Positions 37,804-50,435 of a stretch of DNA of 64,000 bases are shown one piece after another (the first letter of the stretch is position 1; each line of letters opens with the position of its first letter). The stretch lies in contig PHSP01000002.1 of NCBI GenBank assembly GCA_002862125.1, forward strand, positions 124,001 to 188,000, written 5' to 3'. The position numbers and the translations under genes are program-made. The notes below the pieces were generated by a model. That model saw nothing but the letters and a program-made list of their open reading frames with translations, made no database searches and had not been told where the DNA came from. Source of the DNA: Methylobacter sp. KS41. GTDB taxonomy: Bacteria; Pseudomonadota; Gammaproteobacteria; Methylococcales; Methylomonadaceae.

Positions 37804-37958
37804 CTCCAGTCTCCCTAAGTTATTGATTTTTGGTTACCGGCGGTTTTCATTTCGAAAAAACCCTTTAAAATCAATGCTCATTTTTCGCTCTCTCTTGTAG
37901 TGCCATCCATTTAGGTTTGCATCTTGATTTTTTCCGGAATAGCGCCCATGCTAGAGCC

Positions 37959-39845
37959 ATGTATATTCGAAGAACCAAAACCAAAACAGCGGATCATGGC
38001 GAAGATTCCTATACCTATCGGATCGTTGAATCCGTGCGTGAGGGAACACAAGTCAAGCAACGTACGCTACTCAATCTAGGCAAAGACTTTGCCATTGAGC
38101 CCGCGCACTGGCCCTTGCTTGCGGCCAGAATTGAACAGCTTCTGCAAGGCTCAGCGCCGCGCCAAGACGAGTTGTTTCATTTAGAGGATGATGCCGGTCA
38201 ACTTCTGGAGGCCGCCGCCGTGCGCTATAGCGACCTCATCATCGCGAAACTGGCGCAACCGGTGGCGGCAGCGACGCCCGGGCAGGATTATCATAGTGTC
38301 GGCATTAATCATATCGAAGCCCATCAAGCCCGCAGCATCGGCGGGGAAACGTTGGCGTTGCATGCGGTCATGCAGTTGCAGCTGGATCAGAAGCTTGCCG
38401 CACTGGGCTTTAACAAAATCGATGCCGCGGCGGCATTGGGCAGCATCATAGGGCGCATGATTTCACCCGGCAGCGAACTGCAGACCCATGACTGGCTGCA
38501 AGCGCGTACCGGCCTGGGTGAACTGCTTGATCATGACTACGGCAGCACCAGTCTGACGCGCCTGTACACCATCAGCGATAAGTTGCTCAAACACCAGTCG
38601 GCGCTGGAAACTTTTCTGGGTGCTCAGGAGCAGACCTTATTCGATTTAAACCGGAGCATCGTCTTGTACGACTTGACCAACACCTATTTTGAAGGCCAGT
38701 GCGCCCAAAACCCCAAGGCCCGGTTCGGCCGCTCCAAAGAAAAACGCCGTGATTGCCCATTGGTGACCTTAGGTCTGGTTCTGGATGGCAATGGCTTCCC
38801 GCTCAGCAGCCAGGTCTTTCCAGGCAACGCCAGCGAGCCCGCCACGTTGGCGCTGATGCTGGACGGTCTGCAGGGGAAAAATCCATTAGCCGGAGAAAAA
38901 CCGGTCATTATCATGGATGCCGGCATTGCCAGCGCTGACAATCTCGCCTGGTTAAGCGCGCGCGGTTATCTTTACCTGGTGGTCAGCCGGGAACGCTACC
39001 TACAAGATCCCAGAGACCAGGATAATGCCGTACTGGTTAGGGAAACCGGACAGAGCAAAGTCAGCGTTTACCGCACAATCGATGCAGAAACCGGGGAAAC
39101 CCGGCTCTATTGCCACTCCGATCAAAAAGCCAAAAAAGAACAGGCCATCCGCAACCGCTTCCACGTTCGTCTGGAAGAGGGGCTCGACAAGCTCCATGCC
39201 GGTTTGGACAAAAAAGGCACGATCAAAAACTACGCGAAAATACTCGAACGCATTGGCCGGCTGCGCGAAAAAAACAGCCGCGTCGCGCAAGACTACCGCA
39301 TTGAAGTCATTGCTGATGACGCGAAAAACAACGCCATCCGTATTGAATGGCAGCGTGAACCCAAAAGTGAACAAAAAGACCGGCACTGCGGAGTTTACTG
39401 CCTGAGAACCACTACTCCGGACTGGTCGGAAGAACAATTGTGGTCAACCTATATCATGCTGACCGAGATCGAAGCCACGTTCAGAAGCTTGAAAACCGAC
39501 CTCGGCTTACGTCCAGTTTTCCACCATAAAGAAGAACGCGTCACCGGACACTTGTTCATTACTTTAATGGCCTACCATCTGGTGCATACCCTGCGCTATC
39601 AACTCAAGCAGCAGGGTATCCATTTAAGCTGGGACAGCATACGCAACATTATGTCGACCCAACAACGCCTCACGATTACCTTGCCGACAGAGGATAATAA
39701 GACCATTCACCTGCGCACAACAACCCAAGCCGAAACACGCCAAAAACAACTATACGCAGCCTTAAGTATCAAACCTGACCTGATAGGTAAATGTAAGACG
39801 ATTATTGATAAGAAAAAATATGTAGTGCCATTTGAGATAAATTAA
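37959..39845 (+). CDS. IS1634-family transposase
   Basis: 628 residues from ATG 37959 (MYIRRTKTKTADHGEDSYTYRIVES), the family's usual opening; a longer frame to 37917 starts with a weak codon. DDE catalytic residues are likely in VLYDLTNTYFEG (first Asp), IIMDAGIASADNLAWL (second Asp) and EIEATFRSLKTDLGLRPVFHHKEERVTGHLFI (Glu; the YREK-like region). No frameshift or stop interrupts it and both ends are present, so the element may still be active. Composition is a little GC-richer than the flanks. Confidence 0.92.
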   Translation: MYIRRTKTKTADHGEDSYTYRIVESVREGTQVKQRTLLNLGKDFAIEPAHWPLLAARIEQLLQGSAPRQDELFHLEDDAGQLLEAAAVRYSDLIIAKLAQPVAAATPGQDYHSVGINHIEAHQARSIGGETLALHAVMQLQLDQKLAALGFNKIDAAAALGSIIGRMISPGSELQTHDWLQARTGLGELLDHDYGSTSLTRLYTISDKLLKHQSALETFLGAQEQTLFDLNRSIVLYDLTNTYFEGQCAQNPKARFGRSKEKRRDCPLVTLGLVLDGNGFPLSSQVFPGNASEPATLALMLDGLQGKNPLAGEKPVIIMDAGIASADNLAWLSARGYLYLVVSRERYLQDPRDQDNAVLVRETGQSKVSVYRTIDAETGETRLYCHSDQKAKKEQAIRNRFHVRLEEGLDKLHAGLDKKGTIKNYAKILERIGRLREKNSRVAQDYRIEVIADDAKNNAIRIEWQREPKSEQKDRHCGVYCLRTTTPDWSEEQLWSTYIMLTEIEATFRSLKTDLGLRPVFHHKEERVTGHLFITLMAYHLVHTLRYQLKQQGIHLSWDSIRNIMSTQQRLTITLPTEDNKTIHLRTTTQAETRQKQLYAALSIKPDLIGKCKTIIDKKKYVVPFEIN

Positions 39846-41887: not shown

Positions 41888-43108
41888 TTAAACCCGCTTG
41901 AAAATGAGCGAGGTATTGATTCCGCCGAAGGCGAAATTATTACTCATCAGATACTCGCAATCCATTTTACGAATATCGCCTTTAATGTAGTCCAGTTCCG
42001 CGCAGGCGGGGTCAATGTTAACAAGATTCGCCGTCGGATGGAACCAGCCTTCGTTCATCATATTCAGAGCCGCCCAGGCTTCAATAGCTCCGCAGGCTCC
42101 CAGCGTATGACCGGTATAGCTCTTCATGGAACTGATAGGTATCCTGTTGCCGAAAACTGCCGCCGTGGCGTGGCTTTCGGCAATATCGCCCAGCTCGGTC
42201 GCGGTGCCATGAGCGCTGACATAATCAATCACAGCTGCATCAATATCAGCATCCTGCAACGCCAGCCTCATCGCCGCCTGCATGCTGCCGGAATCCGGCT
42301 GGGTGACATGAAGGCCGTCGCAATTGGTGCCGAATCCGATAATCTCGGCATAAATATGCGCGCCCCGGTTTATCGCATGCTCTCTTTCTTCCAGGATTAA
42401 AGTCCCGCCTCCTTCACCGATCACGAGTCCGTCACGCTCCTTGTCAAACGGACGCGGCGTTTTATCCGGTTCATCATTGCGGAGGCTGGTCGCAAACAAG
42501 GTATCGAAAACTGCCGCCTGAGAGGGTGACAGCTCGTCACTGCCGCCGGCCACCATGATGGCTTGAAGCCCATGTTTAATTGTTTCATAAGCGTAACCAA
42601 TGCCTTGGCTGCTGGAGGTGCAGGCGCTCGACGTCGGAATAATGCGCCCTTTAATGCCGAAATGTAAACTGATATTCACCGGGCAGGTGTGCCCCATCAT
42701 ACGAATATAAGAAGTTGCATTCATCCCGCCTTTGTCATGGTTTAGCAGCATTTTGGTAAAATCGATCAGGCCGTCGAAACTGCCCGAGGAACTGCCGTAA
42801 GAAACGCCCGTCTTGCCGCTTGTTAAACAGGGGTCATATAACAAACCGGCATCGATCAAAGCCAGTTCCGAAGCATAAGTAGCCAGCATCGCTACACGCC
42901 CCATGCTACGCACCTGTTTGCGCGAATAATGCGCAGGCCTGGAAAAGTCCACCGGCGCGCCCAAAAGAGTGTTCAGCCCTTTATATTTAACCCAGTCATC
43001 CATTCTTTGAATGCCGGTAATTTGAGATTTAAGCTTTTTAGCAACCGTTTGCCAGTTGTTTCCCAACGGCGTAATGGCTGCCATGCCGGTCACCACAACC
43101 CGTTTCAT
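41888..43108 (-). CDS. Beta-ketoacyl-ACP synthase (FabF-like, pigment/aryl-polyene type), KS-1
   Basis: 406 residues, a complete condensing enzyme: nucleophile Cys163 in SSACTSSSQG, His300 in SAHGTAT and His334 in SYTGHTLGACG, with MKSYTGH supplying the lysine. The opening MKRVVVTGMAAITPLGNNWQ and RKQVRSMGRVAMLA segments resemble FabF-like enzymes of aryl-polyene clusters. It should extend a carrier-bound acyl chain with malonyl units. GGAGG ten bases before the ATG is a good ribosome site. It ends the minus-strand operon halogenase-KS-dehydratase-KS. Both ketosynthases keep all catalytic residues, so this is not a chain-length-factor pair of the actinomycete type. Confidence 0.88.
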   Translation of the reverse strand: MKRVVVTGMAAITPLGNNWQTVAKKLKSQITGIQRMDDWVKYKGLNTLLGAPVDFSRPAHYSRKQVRSMGRVAMLATYASELALIDAGLLYDPCLTSGKTGVSYGSSSGSFDGLIDFTKMLLNHDKGGMNATSYIRMMGHTCPVNISLHFGIKGRIIPTSSACTSSSQGIGYAYETIKHGLQAIMVAGGSDELSPSQAAVFDTLFATSLRNDEPDKTPRPFDKERDGLVIGEGGGTLILEEREHAINRGAHIYAEIIGFGTNCDGLHVTQPDSGSMQAAMRLALQDADIDAAVIDYVSAHGTATELGDIAESHATAAVFGNRIPISSMKSYTGHTLGACGAIEAWAALNMMNEGWFHPTANLVNIDPACAELDYIKGDIRKMDCEYLMSNNFAFGGINTSLIFKRV

Positions 43109-43244
43109 TTATAAAATCCTCCATTTACTGAAAGCACTCGCCTGGTAATATATTCCATATTCTCCGGCATTAAAAAAAACACTATAGCTGCCGGTTCTAT
43201 ATCAGGTAGGCAGGCGTCTGTTAGCAATACCTTTTTTCTCATTG

Positions 43245-43685
43245 TCAGTTTGTTACCACCCGGTTAATAGCTGAATCAGGCTGATAGACATTGAGTTTTG
43301 CCGATGCCGATATGCCTTCGGCTGAAATACGGCAATCAAAAACCCCAAGGCCCTGATCTTCAACTAATTGTTTAATACTCACGGACAGAATCGAACCTAC
43401 GGCAAATGTTCCAACATTGCAAACATATCGTCTTGTTCCCAGCAAAAAACCAAGATTAAGCGGTTCGCCGGCCAATCTGCGCTTCATGCCGCCCAGCGCC
43501 GCAATGGTTTGGGCCATGTATTCTATCCCCAGCCAGGCGGGTACCGTGTTACCGTCGCCAAACAGACCGTCATCGCGCACGATAACTTCCGTAACCATAT
43601 TTTCTTCATCAAATTCAATCACCCGGTTCACTAATACCATTATGCCGGAATGAGGCAGCAAATCTTCGACAGCAAACTTTCTCAT
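43245..43685 (-). CDS. Hotdog-fold 3-hydroxyacyl-ACP dehydratase (ApeP-like)
   Basis: 146 residues. DLLPHSGIMVLVNRVIEFDEE (about 8-28) and AWLGIEYMAQTIAALGG (about 50-66) match the hotdog dehydratases found with aryl-polyene ketosynthases; the active His is in LPHSG and the acidic residue in IEYMAQ. It would remove water from a 3-hydroxyacyl intermediate to leave a double bond. It overlaps the upstream ketosynthase gene by four bases (ATGA). A ketoreductase to make its substrate is not in the cluster and would have to come from fatty-acid synthesis (FabG). Confidence 0.82.
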   Translation of the reverse strand: MRKFAVEDLLPHSGIMVLVNRVIEFDEENMVTEVIVRDDGLFGDGNTVPAWLGIEYMAQTIAALGGMKRRLAGEPLNLGFLLGTRRYVCNVGTFAVGSILSVSIKQLVEDQGLGVFDCRISAEGISASAKLNVYQPDSAINRVVTN

Positions 43686-44884
43686 GTTCGTGAGATAATG
43701 ATGGAAATATTATTGCCGCCAAAGGCAAATGAATTGCTCTGACAATGGTTAACACGTCTTCCTAAGGTCTGGCCCGGTGTTACATAATTCAATGAAGGCA
43801 AAGCGCCGTCCGGCGCATCATCATTAATATTCGGTATTAATAAGCCCTGCGCATCGTCTTGCGCCAATAACAACCAGCAAATGCCCATTTCCATAGCGGC
43901 GGCCGCGCCAAGGGCATGGCCGGTCATGCCCTTGGTTGAGCTGACGGCGACCTCGCCGCCAAACACCTGCCATATTGCATTGCTTTCCATCGCATCGTTC
44001 AAAGGTGTAGCGGTGCCATGCAGATTAATATAATCAATTTCTCCGGGCTGCATCCGTGCATCCGTCAAAGCCATTTCCATGGCTGCGATCACTGCGCCGC
44101 CGTCAGGGTCGGGCGCGGAAAAGTGATAGGCGTCACTGCTCGCGCCAATGCCTTCGAGCGACACGGGTCCTGCTTCCTTGCTTAATACAAACAGGCTTGC
44201 CGCCTCGGCTAAATTGATGCCATCCCGGTGCGAGCCAAAAGGTTTGCACAACCCGGCCGATAAGGACTCCAGCGCTTCAAACCCGGACATCGTAAACTGG
44301 CATAAGCTATCGGCACCGCCGACAATCACCGCATCACAAATATCCAGCGCAATCAGACGGCGGGCCGAAGCAAACGCCCTGCCGCTGGATGAGCAGGCTG
44401 TCGATACTGTATAGGCCGGACCTTTCAGTCCCAGGACAGATGCAAGAAAATCAGCGCCGCCGGCAAACTGCTGCTGTTTATAATGAAACTTTTCCGGTTT
44501 TGGCCGGCTTCTGGCGACTTCCGCCAGAGCCAGTTCTGTATTTCTGAGGCCGGATGTGCTGGTCCCGATGACCACGCCGATCCGGTCAACGCCATAGTTC
44601 CTGATCATGCTGTCGATTGTTGGCTTGATTTGCTCTGACGCAGCTAAGAGTAACCGGCTGTTTCTGCAATCATATACGCTATATTTATCATCGATTCCGG
44701 GCAGCTCGGCCTGGACAGCTCCGGCATAATACGGATGTCCGGGAGAATACTCATCGGTCCTGATCAAACCAGTACGGTGTCCGGCCTGCAAATTGTGCAA
44801 CATCTCGCCGCCATTATTTCCGGAGGCTGAGAGGATGCCGAGGTCATTGAGAAATAGCTTCAAACCAGTCAGGATTCGCGGCAC
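43682..44884 (-). CDS. Beta-ketoacyl-ACP synthase (ApeO-like), KS-2
   Basis: 400 residues with the full catalytic set: Cys164 in VSTACSSSGRA, His289 in INLHGTAT and His323 in GMTGHALGAAAA. The remaining NSFAFGGNN loop is also present. It is shorter at the N-terminus than FabF and resembles the smaller ketosynthase of aryl-polyene clusters. Start is GTG 44884, overlapping the halogenase end by 16 bases; a TTG seven codons later would also fit. Two different complete ketosynthases suggest one initiating condensation and one for elongation. Confidence 0.85.
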   Translation of the reverse strand: MPRILTGLKLFLNDLGILSASGNNGGEMLHNLQAGHRTGLIRTDEYSPGHPYYAGAVQAELPGIDDKYSVYDCRNSRLLLAASEQIKPTIDSMIRNYGVDRIGVVIGTSTSGLRNTELALAEVARSRPKPEKFHYKQQQFAGGADFLASVLGLKGPAYTVSTACSSSGRAFASARRLIALDICDAVIVGGADSLCQFTMSGFEALESLSAGLCKPFGSHRDGINLAEAASLFVLSKEAGPVSLEGIGASSDAYHFSAPDPDGGAVIAAMEMALTDARMQPGEIDYINLHGTATPLNDAMESNAIWQVFGGEVAVSSTKGMTGHALGAAAAMEMGICWLLLAQDDAQGLLIPNINDDAPDGALPSLNYVTPGQTLGRRVNHCQSNSFAFGGNNISIIISRT

Positions 44885-46116
44885 AACTTTACCAGCGTCT
44901 TCAGGCGAAGGCTGTGGTTTTTGACATAGGGATTGTTTTCGTCCCAGACATAGCCAGCCAGAATCGAACAGATCATCTGTTTAATGTTATTTTTTTGTTC
45001 AACATTCTTCAAATGTTGGTAGAACACCACGTCCTGAAAGCTGCCGTCATACCAAGAGTTGACGAAGGTGCGGAATGTTTCCACGCCTTTTTGCAAAGGA
45101 TCGCTAAAATCACTTTGCCAGTCCGCAGGGAGTCCGTTAAATTGCCGGTCAAGGACATCAGCGGCCAAACTTGCCGATTTCATCGCGATTGTGACGCCGG
45201 AGGAAAATACCGGATCAAGAAATTCTCCGGCATTGCCTAGCAAAGCATAACCATTGCCATACAAGTTCTTGACGTTAGCGCTGTATCCGCGGATGCTGTT
45301 GACAGGAGTGTCGTATATTGCGTTTTTCAAAAGGCCGGACAAGCCCGGTTCCAAAGCAACGAATTGCTGTAATACGGTTAGCCGGTCAGTTCCGGGAATA
45401 TTGAGCACGTCTTCTTTACCCACTATGCCTAGACTGCAACGGCCGTTACTGAAAGGAATCAACCAATACCAGACATCGTTTAGTCCGGGATGAACAATAA
45501 TCCGGATTTTATTGCGATCGTAGCTTGAGTCATCTATCCGGTCTTCCAGATGAGTAAAGACCGCTTGCCGTACCGGAAAGTCCGAAGGCTTTTCGAGATC
45601 CAGCAAACGCGGCAATACCCGGCCGAAGCCGCTGGCATCCAGGACGAAATCAGCTGTCAGCTGATAACTCTGTTCCGTTGTGGAATCCCGGATAGTCAGG
45701 CATGGTTTATCGTGGCTGAAATCAGCCGCAATCACTTCCTGCCGCCAGCGAATTTGAACGCCCATCCGCTGTGCTTCATCGGCCAGCAGCGCATCAAAAC
45801 GGTCGCGCTGTACCTGGTAGGTTGAATCAAAGCCATCGGTAAATTTATCGGCGAAACAAAATTCGGAATGTTTGTCGTTATGTAAAAAGGCCGCGCCATT
45901 TTTTAATTGAAATCCTGCCGCCTTAACTGCATCCAGCATTCCGGCCTGTTCAATAATTTCCATGCACTGCGGCAGCAAACTTTCGCCAATACTGAAGCGG
46001 GGAAAAGCATCCCGCTCCACAATGATGGCCGGATAACCCTTGTTGCTCAGTAACGCCCCGGCAATACTGCCTGCAGGTCCAGCGCCAATAATAATGACGT
46101 TTCCTCTATCTGCCAT
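44869..46116 (-). CDS. FAD-dependent halogenase-family flavoprotein
   Basis: 415 residues. The FAD-binding GAGPAGS (11-17) opens the protein, followed by SIGESLLPQCMEII (about 42-55). Two halogenase hallmarks are present: a lysine in GFQLKNGAAF (Lys72), at the place of the lysine that carries hypohalite to the substrate, and the WXWXIP motif as WYWLIP (216-221), which blocks monooxygenase chemistry. DASGFGRVLPRLL and GNAGEFLDPVFSSGVTIAMKSA complete the fold. The closest known types act on carrier-bound pyrroles and phenols (PltA-like). Beside a predicted pyrrolyl-carrier pathway, a chlorinated or brominated pyrrole is the natural guess. Related proteins with no proven halogenation also occur in pigment clusters. 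First gene of the minus-strand operon. Confidence 0.8.
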   Translation of the reverse strand: MADRGNVIIIGAGPAGSIAGALLSNKGYPAIIVERDAFPRFSIGESLLPQCMEIIEQAGMLDAVKAAGFQLKNGAAFLHNDKHSEFCFADKFTDGFDSTYQVQRDRFDALLADEAQRMGVQIRWRQEVIAADFSHDKPCLTIRDSTTEQSYQLTADFVLDASGFGRVLPRLLDLEKPSDFPVRQAVFTHLEDRIDDSSYDRNKIRIIVHPGLNDVWYWLIPFSNGRCSLGIVGKEDVLNIPGTDRLTVLQQFVALEPGLSGLLKNAIYDTPVNSIRGYSANVKNLYGNGYALLGNAGEFLDPVFSSGVTIAMKSASLAADVLDRQFNGLPADWQSDFSDPLQKGVETFRTFVNSWYDGSFQDVVFYQHLKNVEQKNNIKQMICSILAGYVWDENNPYVKNHSLRLKTLVKLCRES

Positions 46117-46276
46117 AAATCTAAGCTGCCTGTCGTTCTATTTTCATTGTGGTAAATACTTTTAAAAAATCTCATCACAGTCCCCGCCTGCAAATTATCC
46201 GGTTTATACCGATTGATAATGACTATTGTGGCCTTGATCAGCTATCATTGAGCGTTTAGTATACCTTACAATAACC
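46117..46276. promoter_or_regulatory. Divergent promoter region of the biosynthetic cluster
   Basis: This 160-base region separates the halogenase operon from the carrier-protein operon and must hold both promoters. A TATACC at about 46259 and TTGATC at about 46237 are possible boxes for the plus operon but are spaced too widely to be firm. No ribosome site of note precedes the carrier-protein ATG. Confidence 0.4.
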
Positions 46277-46516
46277 ATGAAAAAGAAACTACGCGATTTT
46301 ATCTTTCACGAGCTTGTTTTTGTTGCTGAACCGGATCAATTCAGTGATGATGACGATCTGCTGGAAGCAGGTCTGGACAGCATGGGCATTATGCGCCTGA
46401 TTATGTTTATCGAGAATGAATACGGTGTAACCCTCCCCGATACGGAGATTGAACCGGACAATGTGCAATCCTTCAACGCACTGGCGCATTGGATTTTACG
46501 GCATCAAAACGGATGA
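46277..46516 (+). CDS. Acyl/peptidyl carrier protein
   Basis: 79 residues, an acidic four-helix carrier domain. The phosphopantetheine serine is Ser35 in EAGLDSMGIMRL. No phosphopantetheinyl transferase gene is nearby, so a genomic one must serve. As the first gene of the operon with a stand-alone adenylation enzyme and an acyl-CoA-dehydrogenase-like oxidase, it is the natural counterpart of PltL/PigG-type carriers that hold proline during its oxidation to pyrrole. It could also carry the chain for the ketosynthases. The stop overlaps the next gene by ATGA. Confidence 0.88.
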   Translation: MKKKLRDFIFHELVFVAEPDQFSDDDDLLEAGLDSMGIMRLIMFIENEYGVTLPDTEIEPDNVQSFNALAHWILRHQNG

Positions 46517-47844
46517 CTATAAAAAAAGAAGATATTCTGGAAAGACTGAATCCGGCCGATAGTTTCACTCTTGCAATGGATGAGGAAATCCGCAGGGACG
46601 GTTTGGCCGGCAGTTACGGCTGTTTCGCTCTGGAGCTTGACAAAACACCGGATATAGCCGTTCTGCAAGGGCGGATTGCAGAGTTCAGTCTCCGCTTTCC
46701 AGTTGCACAGGCCAGTCTGCAACAAATCGGCCGGCGCTTTTACTGGTGCAGGCGAAACGATCCGCCCCGGCTGTTTTTTCAGCATCATTGCCCCGGTAAC
46801 CAGAATGAAGCGGATTTCCAGCAACACACGATCGACCGTATTATTAATCACAAACAGTTAAGGGAAACTACCGCTCCCATTGAATTTCATCTGTTGACGG
46901 GTCCGGCAAAGCATATTTTTTTCACCCGTTGGCTGCATCCTTTCTGCGATGCCCGCGGTGCCGACCTGATCCTGAAATATCTGTGCATAGCCGATGAAGC
47001 TCAACGCAGGCAATTCGGTCTGCCTGAATCCGGGCCGTTAGTGCTTGAGCAATTGGCTAAATACCGCTGGTGGCAAAAGATCGCTTTGCTGTTGAAAGGC
47101 AAGCGTTATATCGCCAAGCTGGACAGCCTGGAAAGTATTCAGCCGTTTCCCGGCAAACCGGCTCCGCAGCGGCTTAACTACAGCATTCAAAGACTGAGCG
47201 AAGCAGATACCGGACAGGTTGTCAAACTGGCAAGAAAACAGGCCGGACTGACCGGCACCAGCCTTTATTATATCGGCTGCCTGATGCGCGCTCTTGACAA
47301 AATGGCTGTTGACAGCCAAGGTGACGCCTATTGCGCGCCTTATGCCTTCAATTTGCGCAAACAACGGGCCTTGACTCCGATGACAGGCAATCATCTTTGC
47401 GCCCTGTTTGCCCAGGCGCCCCGCGATATTGTTCAAAACCGGCAAAAACTGTTTGACCATCTGAAACAGCAAAATGCCCAGGTCATTCGCCAGCAACTGG
47501 ACTACGCTTTCCTGCCGCTGATGTGGGCCGGGAGCTGGCTGTCCCTAGCCGAATACGGCAAGACCTTGCGCCAGGCTTTCGGCTCGGGGAAGGAGCGCAG
47601 TTCATTCTGGTTTTCCGATGTAGGCCGGGTAGACATTCCTGAGAACAGCTTTCCCGGTGCTGAAATTACCGGCGTATTTCATGTCTGCCAGGTAACCTCG
47701 CCGCCCGCGCTGGCTTTTCTGAGCTGTATCCACCGGAACCGGTTAACCCTGAGCTACAACTTTGTCGAACCGGTCAGTAATCCAGCGCAAATAGAGAAAT
47801 TGCAGCAATTAATGCTGGCGGAATTACTGGAGGAGACAGAATGA
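46513..47844 (+). CDS. Condensation-like (C-domain superfamily) protein
   Basis: 443 residues from ATG 46513, which overlaps the carrier stop. The sequence is diverged. Features of the CoA-dependent acyltransferase/condensation fold are WLHPFCDARGADLIL (about 141-155), which matches HHXXXDG with the second His (His142) and the Asp (Asp146) kept but the first His and adjoining Gly changed, and FWFSDVGRVD with a downstream FHVCQVTSPPAL, akin to the DFGWG-type latch. It could join the carrier-bound acyl group to an amine or alcohol, or hand it to the ketosynthases. I do not recognise a characterised orthologue. GGAGGAG near its end serves the next gene. Confidence 0.6.
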   Translation: MTIKKEDILERLNPADSFTLAMDEEIRRDGLAGSYGCFALELDKTPDIAVLQGRIAEFSLRFPVAQASLQQIGRRFYWCRRNDPPRLFFQHHCPGNQNEADFQQHTIDRIINHKQLRETTAPIEFHLLTGPAKHIFFTRWLHPFCDARGADLILKYLCIADEAQRRQFGLPESGPLVLEQLAKYRWWQKIALLLKGKRYIAKLDSLESIQPFPGKPAPQRLNYSIQRLSEADTGQVVKLARKQAGLTGTSLYYIGCLMRALDKMAVDSQGDAYCAPYAFNLRKQRALTPMTGNHLCALFAQAPRDIVQNRQKLFDHLKQQNAQVIRQQLDYAFLPLMWAGSWLSLAEYGKTLRQAFGSGKERSSFWFSDVGRVDIPENSFPGAEITGVFHVCQVTSPPALAFLSCIHRNRLTLSYNFVEPVSNPAQIEKLQQLMLAELLEETE

Positions 47845-49358
47845 GCGCCTCGGTAAATCAGGTGGAGCTTGCCGTTAATAACCGGGCAAATCCTTACAAT
47901 GAAACTCATATCCAGTCTTTGCTTTCTGCATTTAACCGGCAATGCCAAACCGCACCGGACAACCTTGCCTTTATTGAAGGCGGCCGACAGTTCAGTTATT
48001 GTCAGCTCAGGCAGCGGGCCTCTCAGCTTAGCGCCGGTTTGTTAACTCGGCAGAAGCCTTGCCGGCGTGTCGTCATAGCCGTGGATCGCGGTATTGATGC
48101 CGCTGCCGCCATTTTGGCTGTGTTGGGCGCCGGCGCTTGTTATATTCCTCTCGACATCAAAAACCCGGCCCCTCGTTTGAATTACATCATCAACGATGCC
48201 CACCCTCAATATATTATCGGCAAAGGACACTGTCCGGATTGGCTGGAAACCCCTGAGCTCTGGCTGGATATTGAGCAGTTGGATTGCTCACAACTAAGTA
48301 CCTGTTGGCCGGCGGAAGTAAGCTCCGAAGCGCTGGCAGCAATACTCTATACCTCCGGCTCCACCGGCGTACCCAAAGGAGTCGCTTTAAGTCACAGAGC
48401 GATGCGCAATTTCTCCGGCTGGGCGTCAAACACTTTCCGGATCAGCCGCAACGACCGCATCGCTTCATTGGCTCCATTTCATTTCGATCTGTCCGTTTTC
48501 GATTTATTCAGCAGCTTAAGTTGCGGCGCTTCTGTTCTATTTGTGCCGGCCGGATTGACTCTCTCGCCTAGCCGGCTGACTGCATGGCTATCTGAACAGC
48601 GCATCAGCGTTTTTTATACGGTGCCGTCATTGCTTGGGTTTATCGCCTTGAAAGGCTCTTTATCCTCCATTTCGCTGCCCGATCTGAAAACTGTGCTTTT
48701 TGCCGGCGAGGTGTTTCCAACTCAGCAGTTGAAAAAGCTGTGCGGGTTATTGCCGGATGTTAATTTTTACAACCTGTACGGACCCACTGAAACCAATGTC
48801 TGTTGCTATTGGCCGGTGGATCGCGAGCGCCTGAAATCCGGCCAACCCATCCCGATCGGCTACCCGGCCTGCGGCGCTGTTCTGCAAATCGACGACGAAA
48901 CCAACGAATTAGCGGTCAAAAGCGCCAGCAATCTATCCGGCTACTGGAAACAAGGCCAACTGATCAACGCATTAACGCCTGATGGCTATTATCATACCGG
49001 CGACAAGGTTTCGCTTAATGAACAAGGTGAATACTGTTATCACGGCCGTCTCGACCGGATGCTGAAATGCTCCGGCTACCGGGTCGAACCGGCGGAAATA
49101 GAATCGGCATTATTACAATGTCCTGAAGTGATTAACTGTGCCGTCATCGGCATTATCGACAGCGCTTGCGGTCAACGTCCCGCCGCCGCCGTTGTCCTGA
49201 AAAACGGCGCAAAACTGGACACGGTAGTCAAATCGGCCAAACAAAAATTACCGGCCTATATGCAGCCTTGCAAATATATAGAGCTGGAGTCCTTGCCTTA
49301 TTTTAGCAACGGTAAGACCGACTACCTGAAATTGCGCCAACAACTGGAGAAAAACTGA
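47841..49358 (+). CDS. Stand-alone amino acid adenylation enzyme, predicted L-proline-activating
   Basis: 505 residues, with no fused carrier. Core motifs: TSGSTGVPKG (171-180), NLYGPTETN (about 311-319), YHTGDKVSL, GRLDRMLKCSGYRVEPAEIE and the final catalytic lysine in NGKTD (Lys492). Reading the binding-pocket positions by alignment to the gramicidin phenylalanine domain gives D-L-F-S-L-A-L-V-C, close to the D-L-L-Y-L-A-L-V-C I recall for prolyl-AMP ligases of pyrrole pathways (PltF, PigI, RedM). It would load proline on the carrier protein two genes upstream. It overlaps the previous gene by ATGA and has a strong GGAGGAG ribosome site. Confidence 0.85.
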   Translation: MSASVNQVELAVNNRANPYNETHIQSLLSAFNRQCQTAPDNLAFIEGGRQFSYCQLRQRASQLSAGLLTRQKPCRRVVIAVDRGIDAAAAILAVLGAGACYIPLDIKNPAPRLNYIINDAHPQYIIGKGHCPDWLETPELWLDIEQLDCSQLSTCWPAEVSSEALAAILYTSGSTGVPKGVALSHRAMRNFSGWASNTFRISRNDRIASLAPFHFDLSVFDLFSSLSCGASVLFVPAGLTLSPSRLTAWLSEQRISVFYTVPSLLGFIALKGSLSSISLPDLKTVLFAGEVFPTQQLKKLCGLLPDVNFYNLYGPTETNVCCYWPVDRERLKSGQPIPIGYPACGAVLQIDDETNELAVKSASNLSGYWKQGQLINALTPDGYYHTGDKVSLNEQGEYCYHGRLDRMLKCSGYRVEPAEIESALLQCPEVINCAVIGIIDSACGQRPAAAVVLKNGAKLDTVVKSAKQKLPAYMQPCKYIELESLPYFSNGKTDYLKLRQQLEKN

Positions 49359-50435
49359 ATGGACATCGATAATCTGCCCGGTGCGGGAGATGCCGCTGCC
49401 TCAAGGCATCGCTTGCAATACTGTGCGAACCAGGGTTTGTTTAGGCATGCCGTCCCGGCGGATAACGGCGGTTACGGCAACCATTTTACCGATCTGGTTA
49501 ACGCGCATGAAACACTGGGCAAGGCCGGGAAGGATACCGGCTTAATGCTTTCCATCAACGCTCATCTATGGGGCGCTTTGTTTCCAATCCTGAAATACGG
49601 CGATACCCGGCAGCAAAAAATCTATTTGAGCGGCTTAGTAACCGGCGGCCTGATAGGCGGCCATGCCATTACCGAACCGCAGGCCGGCTCCGATATTAAC
49701 GCATTGGCAATGACCGCCGTGCAAAGCGGCGACGGGTTTTTACTGAACGGGCATAAGCGCTTCATTACCAATACTCCTATCGCCGATCTGCTGATTGTAT
49801 ACGCCCGTCTGGACAATAAATTATCCGCTTTCATCGTGCATAAGGATGATCAAGGCGCTGGCTTTCTTGATACGCCCCAGATAACGGGTTGCCGGAGCGC
49901 TACGATGGGCGATGTCATACTTGAAAATTGCCTGATTCCAGCTGTCCGGCAATTGGGCAAAACCGGTGCAGGCAATATGATGATCCAACAGGCGCTTGAG
50001 CTGGAAAGGGCGTTTATTTTTGCCGGCATCTGCGGCCTCATGGACTGGCAGCTGGAAACCGTCATCAAGTTCAGCCGCGAACGCAAAGTCAACGACATTC
50101 ACCTGGGAAAATACCAGGCCGTCAGCCACAAAATTGCCGAAATGAAATTAAGGCTCGACACGATCAGGCTCTGGGTCAGCGAATGCGCGCGTCTCAAAGA
50201 CGGCAACAAGCGCATCACTCTGGCCAGCGCCCAAACCAAATTATTCGCCGCCGAAGCGTTTCTGCAATCCAGCCTGGACGCAGTCCACATACTCGGCAGC
50301 AACGGCCTCACAAAAGCCAGCCTGATGGCGGATCTGGTCATCGACGCGCTCGCCAGCCGCCTGTTTTCCGGCTCCTCGGAAATCCAGAAAAATATCATCG
50401 CCGCCTTGCTTGGAACCGGCGATGGCTATAGATAA
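49359..50435 (+). CDS. Acyl-CoA-dehydrogenase-like flavoprotein, predicted prolyl-carrier dehydrogenase
   Basis: 358 residues of the acyl-CoA dehydrogenase fold. AVPADNGGYGNHF, HAITEPQAGSDINALAMTA (about 98-116) and GHKRFITNTPIADLLIVYAR form the FAD and substrate region; LFSGSSEIQKNIIA ends the domain. The glutamate normally found in YEGT near the C-terminus is replaced (FSGSS), so the base is probably the Glu in ELERAFIFAGICG (about 211-223), as in isovaleryl-CoA and prolyl-carrier dehydrogenases. PltE/PigA-type enzymes oxidise prolyl-S-carrier to pyrrolyl-2-carbonyl-S-carrier. It starts directly after the adenylation gene's stop. Confidence 0.82.
   Translation: MDIDNLPGAGDAAASRHRLQYCANQGLFRHAVPADNGGYGNHFTDLVNAHETLGKAGKDTGLMLSINAHLWGALFPILKYGDTRQQKIYLSGLVTGGLIGGHAITEPQAGSDINALAMTAVQSGDGFLLNGHKRFITNTPIADLLIVYARLDNKLSAFIVHKDDQGAGFLDTPQITGCRSATMGDVILENCLIPAVRQLGKTGAGNMMIQQALELERAFIFAGICGLMDWQLETVIKFSRERKVNDIHLGKYQAVSHKIAEMKLRLDTIRLWVSECARLKDGNKRITLASAQTKLFAAEAFLQSSLDAVHILGSNGLTKASLMADLVIDALASRLFSGSSEIQKNIIAALLGTGDGYR

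Follow-up and report, generated by a model that had tools for sequence, protein, structure and literature searches.

Aryl polyenes form a class of bacterial pigments that is very widespread. Their gene clusters dominate in Methylococcaceae, and the methanotroph survey that counts them makes no mention of pyrrole (PMC11964084). A second group of described systems comprises the stand-alone prolyl ligases of pyrrole pathways, basically PltF of pyoluteorin and PigI of prodigiosin; the published consensus for stand-alone L-Pro domains is L(L/F)YLALVC (PMC3874040). The locus described here contains genes of both kinds. It lies in a stretch of 64,000 nt from Methylobacter sp. KS41 (assembly GCA_002862125.1, contig PHSP01000002.1, positions 124,001 to 188,000), referred to below as the window. 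The genome has two pmoA-family genes, so the host oxidises methane (or ammonia). The pyrrole-related part of the locus is a cassette of four genes, which adjoin or overlap by 4 nt:

46277..46516, + strand: peptidyl carrier protein, PltL-like (PF00550; phosphopantetheine Ser in GLDSMG)
46489..47844, + strand: condensation-domain-fold acyltransferase ("Clk"; 451 aa; AlphaFold model and Foldseek)
47841..49358, + strand: stand-alone prolyl-AMP ligase of the PltF/PigI kind (pocket DLFYLALVC plus K492)
49359..50435, + strand: prolyl-S-carrier dehydrogenase with acyl-CoA-dehydrogenase fold (358 aa; PigA/RedW models, 4irn)

The adenylation protein

The first-pass annotation had delimited the ligase ORF exactly (47841-49358, + strand, 505 aa). 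The protein contains AMP-binding (PF00501) and AMP-binding_C (PF13193) domains only, and is free-standing, without a C or T domain. The same annotation had read the adenylation pocket by eye as a prolyl code. Eight of its nine residues stand (D216, L217, F220, L286, A288, L312, V320 and C321), but the fourth, which had been taken to be Ser, does not: in a gap-free alignment, the column that holds Tyr in PltF and PigI holds Y259 of the ligase (in the context ISVFYTVPS, versus ISIWYSVPS). As this alignment runs without a gap from the FDLS to the VPS motif, the pocket residues follow directly from those of PltF. The corrected pocket is D216-L217-F220-Y259-L286-A288-L312-V320-C321, with K492 as the tenth, invariant lysine. 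It shares eight of nine positions with PltF (DLLYLALVC, read from the PltF sequence), rather than the seven first counted, and fits the published consensus at all positions between the invariant D and K (PMC3874040). The expectation that ligases of pyrrole pathways all have DLLYLALVC was too strict, as PigI has DLFYIAWVC; the homologue of Pseudoalteromonas luteoviolacea, presumed to be Bmp4 from the organism and its neighbours, has DLLYIAFVC.

The pocket match is not attributable to chance, because the 22 A domains of large modular ORFs share only 1-5 of nine positions with DLLYLALVC, while stand-alone relatives with an acyl-CoA-dehydrogenase neighbour nearly all share 6-9. The wider set of relatives gives a similar picture. 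GTDB genomes scanned with an alignment of eight ligase relatives yielded 80 loci, most of which read DL(L/F)YLALVC or differ from it by one or two residues, and most of which have an acyl-CoA-dehydrogenase gene near the ligase homologue. More distant homologues (39% identity), in open frames of about 640 aa, occur at G118:C1:3706442-3707995 and G138:C29:28528-30081, where they are second copies.

The best free-standing solved enzymes for the ligase in a phmmer search of the PDB are PltF and PigI, and with the core fragment the two again outrank all other free-standing enzymes. The structural model (pLDDT 81) has as its three best PDB matches in a fold search the structures of PltF trapped with proline adenosine vinylsulfonamide. 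In a tree of 63 proteins rooted on modular NRPS domains, in which the PDB rows are core fragments covering about 35% of the columns, the window ligase and 16 methanotroph-type relatives form one group with a support of 100. This group is nested with PigI-type rows (Pseudoalteromonas rubra, Rugamonas rubra), PltF-type rows (Pseudomonas sp. LD120) and P. luteoviolacea. The split between stand-alone ligases and modular NRPS domains also has a support of 100; the order within the stand-alone group is weaker (84-89). The ligase thus falls with the stand-alone prolyl ligases, and not outside the prolyl-ligase clade. Clade, nearest relatives by sequence (PltF and PigI) and by fold (PltF), and gene context all bear out the prolyl reading of the pocket. 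The context is independent of the pocket and agrees with it, as the neighbours are a PltL-like carrier and a dehydrogenase whose nearest relatives are AnaB, PigA and RedW. From its sequence, the ligase is predicted very likely to activate L-proline, for conversion into a pyrrole ring.

Partners in the cassette

The best PDB matches of the carrier are PltL (2n5h) and chain E of 6o6e. The dehydrogenase matches the PigA model with E=8e-84 and the RedW model with E=7e-78, and its best PDB match is the prolyl-ACP dehydrogenase 4irn, so that AnaB, PigA and RedW are its nearest kinds; it also keeps the Glu of the conserved ER/EK pair. These models are its closest, yet it scores below the NCBIfam equivalog cut-offs (281.9 versus 500 bits for PigA; 262.1 versus 650 bits for RedW), and for this reason we describe it as working like PigA/RedW, and not as being one of them. 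On sequence grounds, oxidation of the prolyl-carrier to a pyrrolyl-carrier by this protein is very likely.

The protein encoded at 46489-47844 has no Pfam or NCBIfam match, and nothing notable was found for it in a sequence search of the PDB. Modelled with AlphaFold from 29 homologues (pLDDT 88), it matches C/E/Cy domains, PapA5, Tri3 and AzeD in Foldseek. H150, D154 and G157, which are invariant in the 29 homologues, represent the HHxxxDG motif from its second His onwards; another residue stands in place of the first His, and the catalytic His is kept. The true start of this gene is probably the ATG at 46513, which gives a 4-nt overlap with the carrier stop, and not the TTG at 46489, because in many homologues the longer frame is interrupted by a stop within its first codons.

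Aryl-polyene genes in the window and in a remote cluster

Divergent to the cassette are the following features, mostly comparable to genes of the aryl-polyene cluster of E. coli CFT073; a remote cluster of the same genome is listed last:

46117..46276, no strand: divergent intergenic region between the two operons (160 bp)
44869..46116, - strand: flavin-dependent halogenase-like protein (GxGxxG, GESLLP, WYWLIP)
43682..44884, - strand: ApeO-type ketosynthase (45% to E. coli CFT073 ApeO; Cys-His-His present)
43245..43685, - strand: ApeP dehydratase (33% to E. coli CFT073 ApeP, E 2e-24)
43114..43197, - strand: remnant of an ApeQ-type ketoreductase, its last 28 codons (tblastn 68% identity, E=2e-6)
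41888..43108, - strand: ApeR-type ketosynthase (60% to E. coli CFT073 ApeR)
G000:C1, about 2.066-2.086 Mb in the same genome: remote ape cluster (within L201/L202, 2062000-2095000)

The intergenic region contains promoter-like matches of weak quality only. A whole ApeQ-type ketoreductase gene stands between ApeP and ApeR in most close relatives; it is also missing at the locus in L036, L037 and L042. The remote cluster contains a whole ketoreductase, which is 76-82% identical to those of relatives. A DDE transposase gene lies near the pathway (37917-39845 of the window, + strand), and an identical copy is found at about 2.36-2.38 Mb of the same contig as the remote cluster (L066).

The remote cluster matches ApeC, D, E, F, G, H/I, J, K, L, M, N and Q. 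No match to ApeO, P or R was found in it, and exactly these three stand in the window, where the ApeP is the sole PF22817 match in the genome. Because the two ape sets complement each other and there is a single ApeP-family match, the window and the remote cluster appear to be two halves of a single pathway. The remote cluster also holds an aromatic ammonia-lyase, an ApeH-ApeI fusion, an MMPL exporter and acyltransferases. With ApeO, ApeP and ApeR here and most other ape genes elsewhere in the genome, the gene set that defines an aryl-polyene pathway is present, and the host pathway is predicted from gene content to be of this class.

Distribution of the cassette

Among 237 genomes of the family, the ligase occurs in 72 (about 30% of those sampled), the dehydrogenase in 73 and the condensation-like protein in 72, and the three occur together in 67 of the 77 genomes that have any of them. 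The pairing of cassette genes has a Fisher p below 1e-47, a statistic that ignores shared ancestry. In four genomes (G139, G193, G195 and G233) the ligase-dehydrogenase pair is located away from the condensation-like gene, either at a distance of about 10 kb or on a different contig, so that the absence of the ligase beside that gene is not a loss. The same kind of cassette occurs in a family outside the window's class, at L079-L082 and at L193 and L194 (G296 and G272); at the latter two loci the carrier, condensation-like protein, ligase and dehydrogenase show 41-62% identity. These cassettes suggest a wider spread or transfer.

At least two non-carrier ape-type genes are present in the fetched stretch at 27 of 38 sampled cassette loci; the other 11 have fewer than two, and some of these are on short contigs. 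An ApeP-family match is absent from 29 of the 72 cassette genomes, and a prolyl ligase of the window kind is absent from 65 of the 108 genomes whose ApeP match exceeds the cut-off. The pyrrole cassette is an optional addition to the ape genes.

Proposed pathway and alternatives

From the computed family, pocket, clade, operon, co-occurrence and split ape set we infer the substrate, oxidation, transfer and acceptor of the following scheme. The ligase would adenylate L-proline and load it onto the carrier (46277-46516), and the dehydrogenase (49359-50435) would convert the prolyl-S-carrier to a pyrrole-2-carboxyl-S-carrier. The condensation-fold protein (46489-47844) would then move the pyrrolyl group to an acceptor supplied by the aryl-polyene enzymes, namely ApeO, ApeP and ApeR of the window together with the ape proteins of the remote cluster. 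The predicted product is an aryl polyene to which a pyrrole-2-carboxyl group is attached, an ester or amide cap being the most likely form; the polyene that receives the cap could be finished or still bound to a carrier. Taken by itself, the transfer step with its aryl-polyene acceptor is moderately likely; the scheme as a whole, which comprises activation of proline, its oxidation on the carrier and condensation-fold transfer to an aryl polyene, we consider probable. Counting against it are the cassette genomes without an ApeP-family match, the cassette loci with fewer than two ape-type genes, the replaced first His of the condensation-like protein, the sub-cut-off scores of the dehydrogenase and the separate aromatic starter genes of the remote cluster.

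Three features favour a cap. The first is that the pathway has its own aromatic starter genes: besides an ammonia-lyase, the remote cluster encodes an ApeI with an ApeH-like ligase fused to it, so that initiation of the polyene does not require pyrrole. Flexirubin clusters similarly carry an ammonia-lyase together with a coumarate ligase (PMC3992019). The second is the condensation fold of the predicted transferase. The third is that paralogous cassettes stand among the same ape genes at L063:9651-10976, L064:6804-10884 and L065:8993-10300. These encode a condensation-like protein of about 20% identity, another AMP ligase that is acyl-CoA-ligase-like and an FAD oxidase, with no prolyl ligase, which is what an exchangeable acid combined with a constant kind of transferase would produce. 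Extending this, we tentatively propose, as something slightly short of an even chance, that type I methanotrophs make a polyene to which a proline-derived pyrrole-2-carboxyl group is added by a condensation-fold transferase, and that acyl cassettes have been swapped between species to place different acids on one scaffold.

The alternative that survives best is that the pyrrolyl thioester starts the polyene, with ApeR or ApeO elongating pyrrole-2-carbonyl, which it would receive from the carrier either directly or through the condensation-like protein, to give a pyrrolyl-polyene carboxylic acid. Synthases of the PigJ or PltB type use pyrrolyl carriers, and in the window and its close relatives two intact ketosynthases and ApeP stand divergent to the cassette. 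The usual starter of ape ketosynthases is an aryl-carrier, and a role of ApeR in initiation has been reported (PMC8253772). We nevertheless regard priming by pyrrole as unlikely, since Claisen priming needs no condensation-fold enzyme, the remote cluster itself supplies aromatic starter genes, and the same ApeO-P-Q-R operon is accompanied in L063 and L064 by another cassette, which has no prolyl ligase.

A further alternative is a halopyrrole pathway of the pyoluteorin or pentabromopseudilin kind, in which the flavoprotein (44869-46116) would halogenate the carrier-bound pyrrole. This protein belongs to the Trp_halogenase superfamily and has a WxWxIP-like motif, its gene adjoins the cassette in divergent orientation, alongside the ApeO, ApeP and ApeR genes, and its PDB matches include PltA, Mpy16 and Bmp2. 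Its nearest solved relative by far, however, is 3nix (359 bits, versus 124 bits for PltA). It also tracks the ApeO-R operon, being present at 64-68% in L063 and L064, both without a pyrrole cassette, and is absent (28-31% matches only) from a dozen or so cassette loci. A pyrrole halogenase of the PltA/Bmp2 kind is disfavoured on these grounds, and we judge halogenation of the pyrrole improbable; a link of the flavoprotein to the polyene is more likely than one to the pyrrole.

Activation of a substituted proline, pipecolate or azetidine-2-carboxylate in place of L-proline is very improbable, for although pocket codes do not separate close proline analogues with certainty and the related domain LmbC has shifted to alkylprolines, LmbC deviates from the L-Pro consensus at most pocket positions, the L-proline enzyme CcbC at two (PMC3874040) and the window ligase at none, and the dehydrogenase adjoining the ligase is of the prolyl-carrier kind.

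Comparison with known systems

PltF, the L-prolyl-[PltL] ligase of pyoluteorin, resembles the window ligase in its stand-alone fold, in a pocket with only the L/F difference and in its carrier and dehydrogenase partners, but the two are about 32% identical when aligned by fold, and the window has aryl-polyene type genes instead of the pyoluteorin PKS. PigI is likewise a stand-alone prolyl ligase in the same tree grouping, although its pocket differs (DLFYIAWVC), and no prodigiosin-type genes were recognised at the window locus. AnaB, PigA and RedW are the best matches of the 358-aa dehydrogenase, which differs from them by its shorter N-terminus and sub-cut-off scores.

On the polyene side, the ApeA-R cluster of E. 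coli CFT073 has ApeO, ApeP and ApeR in the same order. Unlike in E. coli, the methanotroph set is split in two loci, with ApeQ lost here and the flavoprotein added, and the E. coli cluster is without a pyrrole cassette. The flexirubin and xanthomonadin pathways share with the present system the ape-type synthases, a halogenase-like flavoprotein and the acylated aryl polyene class, and flexirubin also the ammonia-lyase; no pyrrole-forming genes are described with either pathway in the literature searched. Celluxanthenes, which are arylpolyene alkaloids, were considered as a precedent and set aside, as neither pyrrole nor proline appears in the paper on them. The open-access literature searched contains no description of pyrrole with an aryl polyene, or of Methylomonas with pyrrole and a polyene, although this does not prove that the combination is new. 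The position of the pyrrole cassette beside aryl-polyene genes in methanotrophs suggests a pyrrole-bearing polyene pigment of a kind not found in that literature. This prediction is directly testable in cultured strains, because aryl polyenes are widespread and their clusters dominate in Methylococcaceae. Measured against these systems, the A protein by itself is an ordinary additional proline activator of known kind; less ordinary than the ligase alone is the conserved pairing of its cassette with ape genes, the ligase being found in about 30% of the sampled genomes of the methanotroph family.
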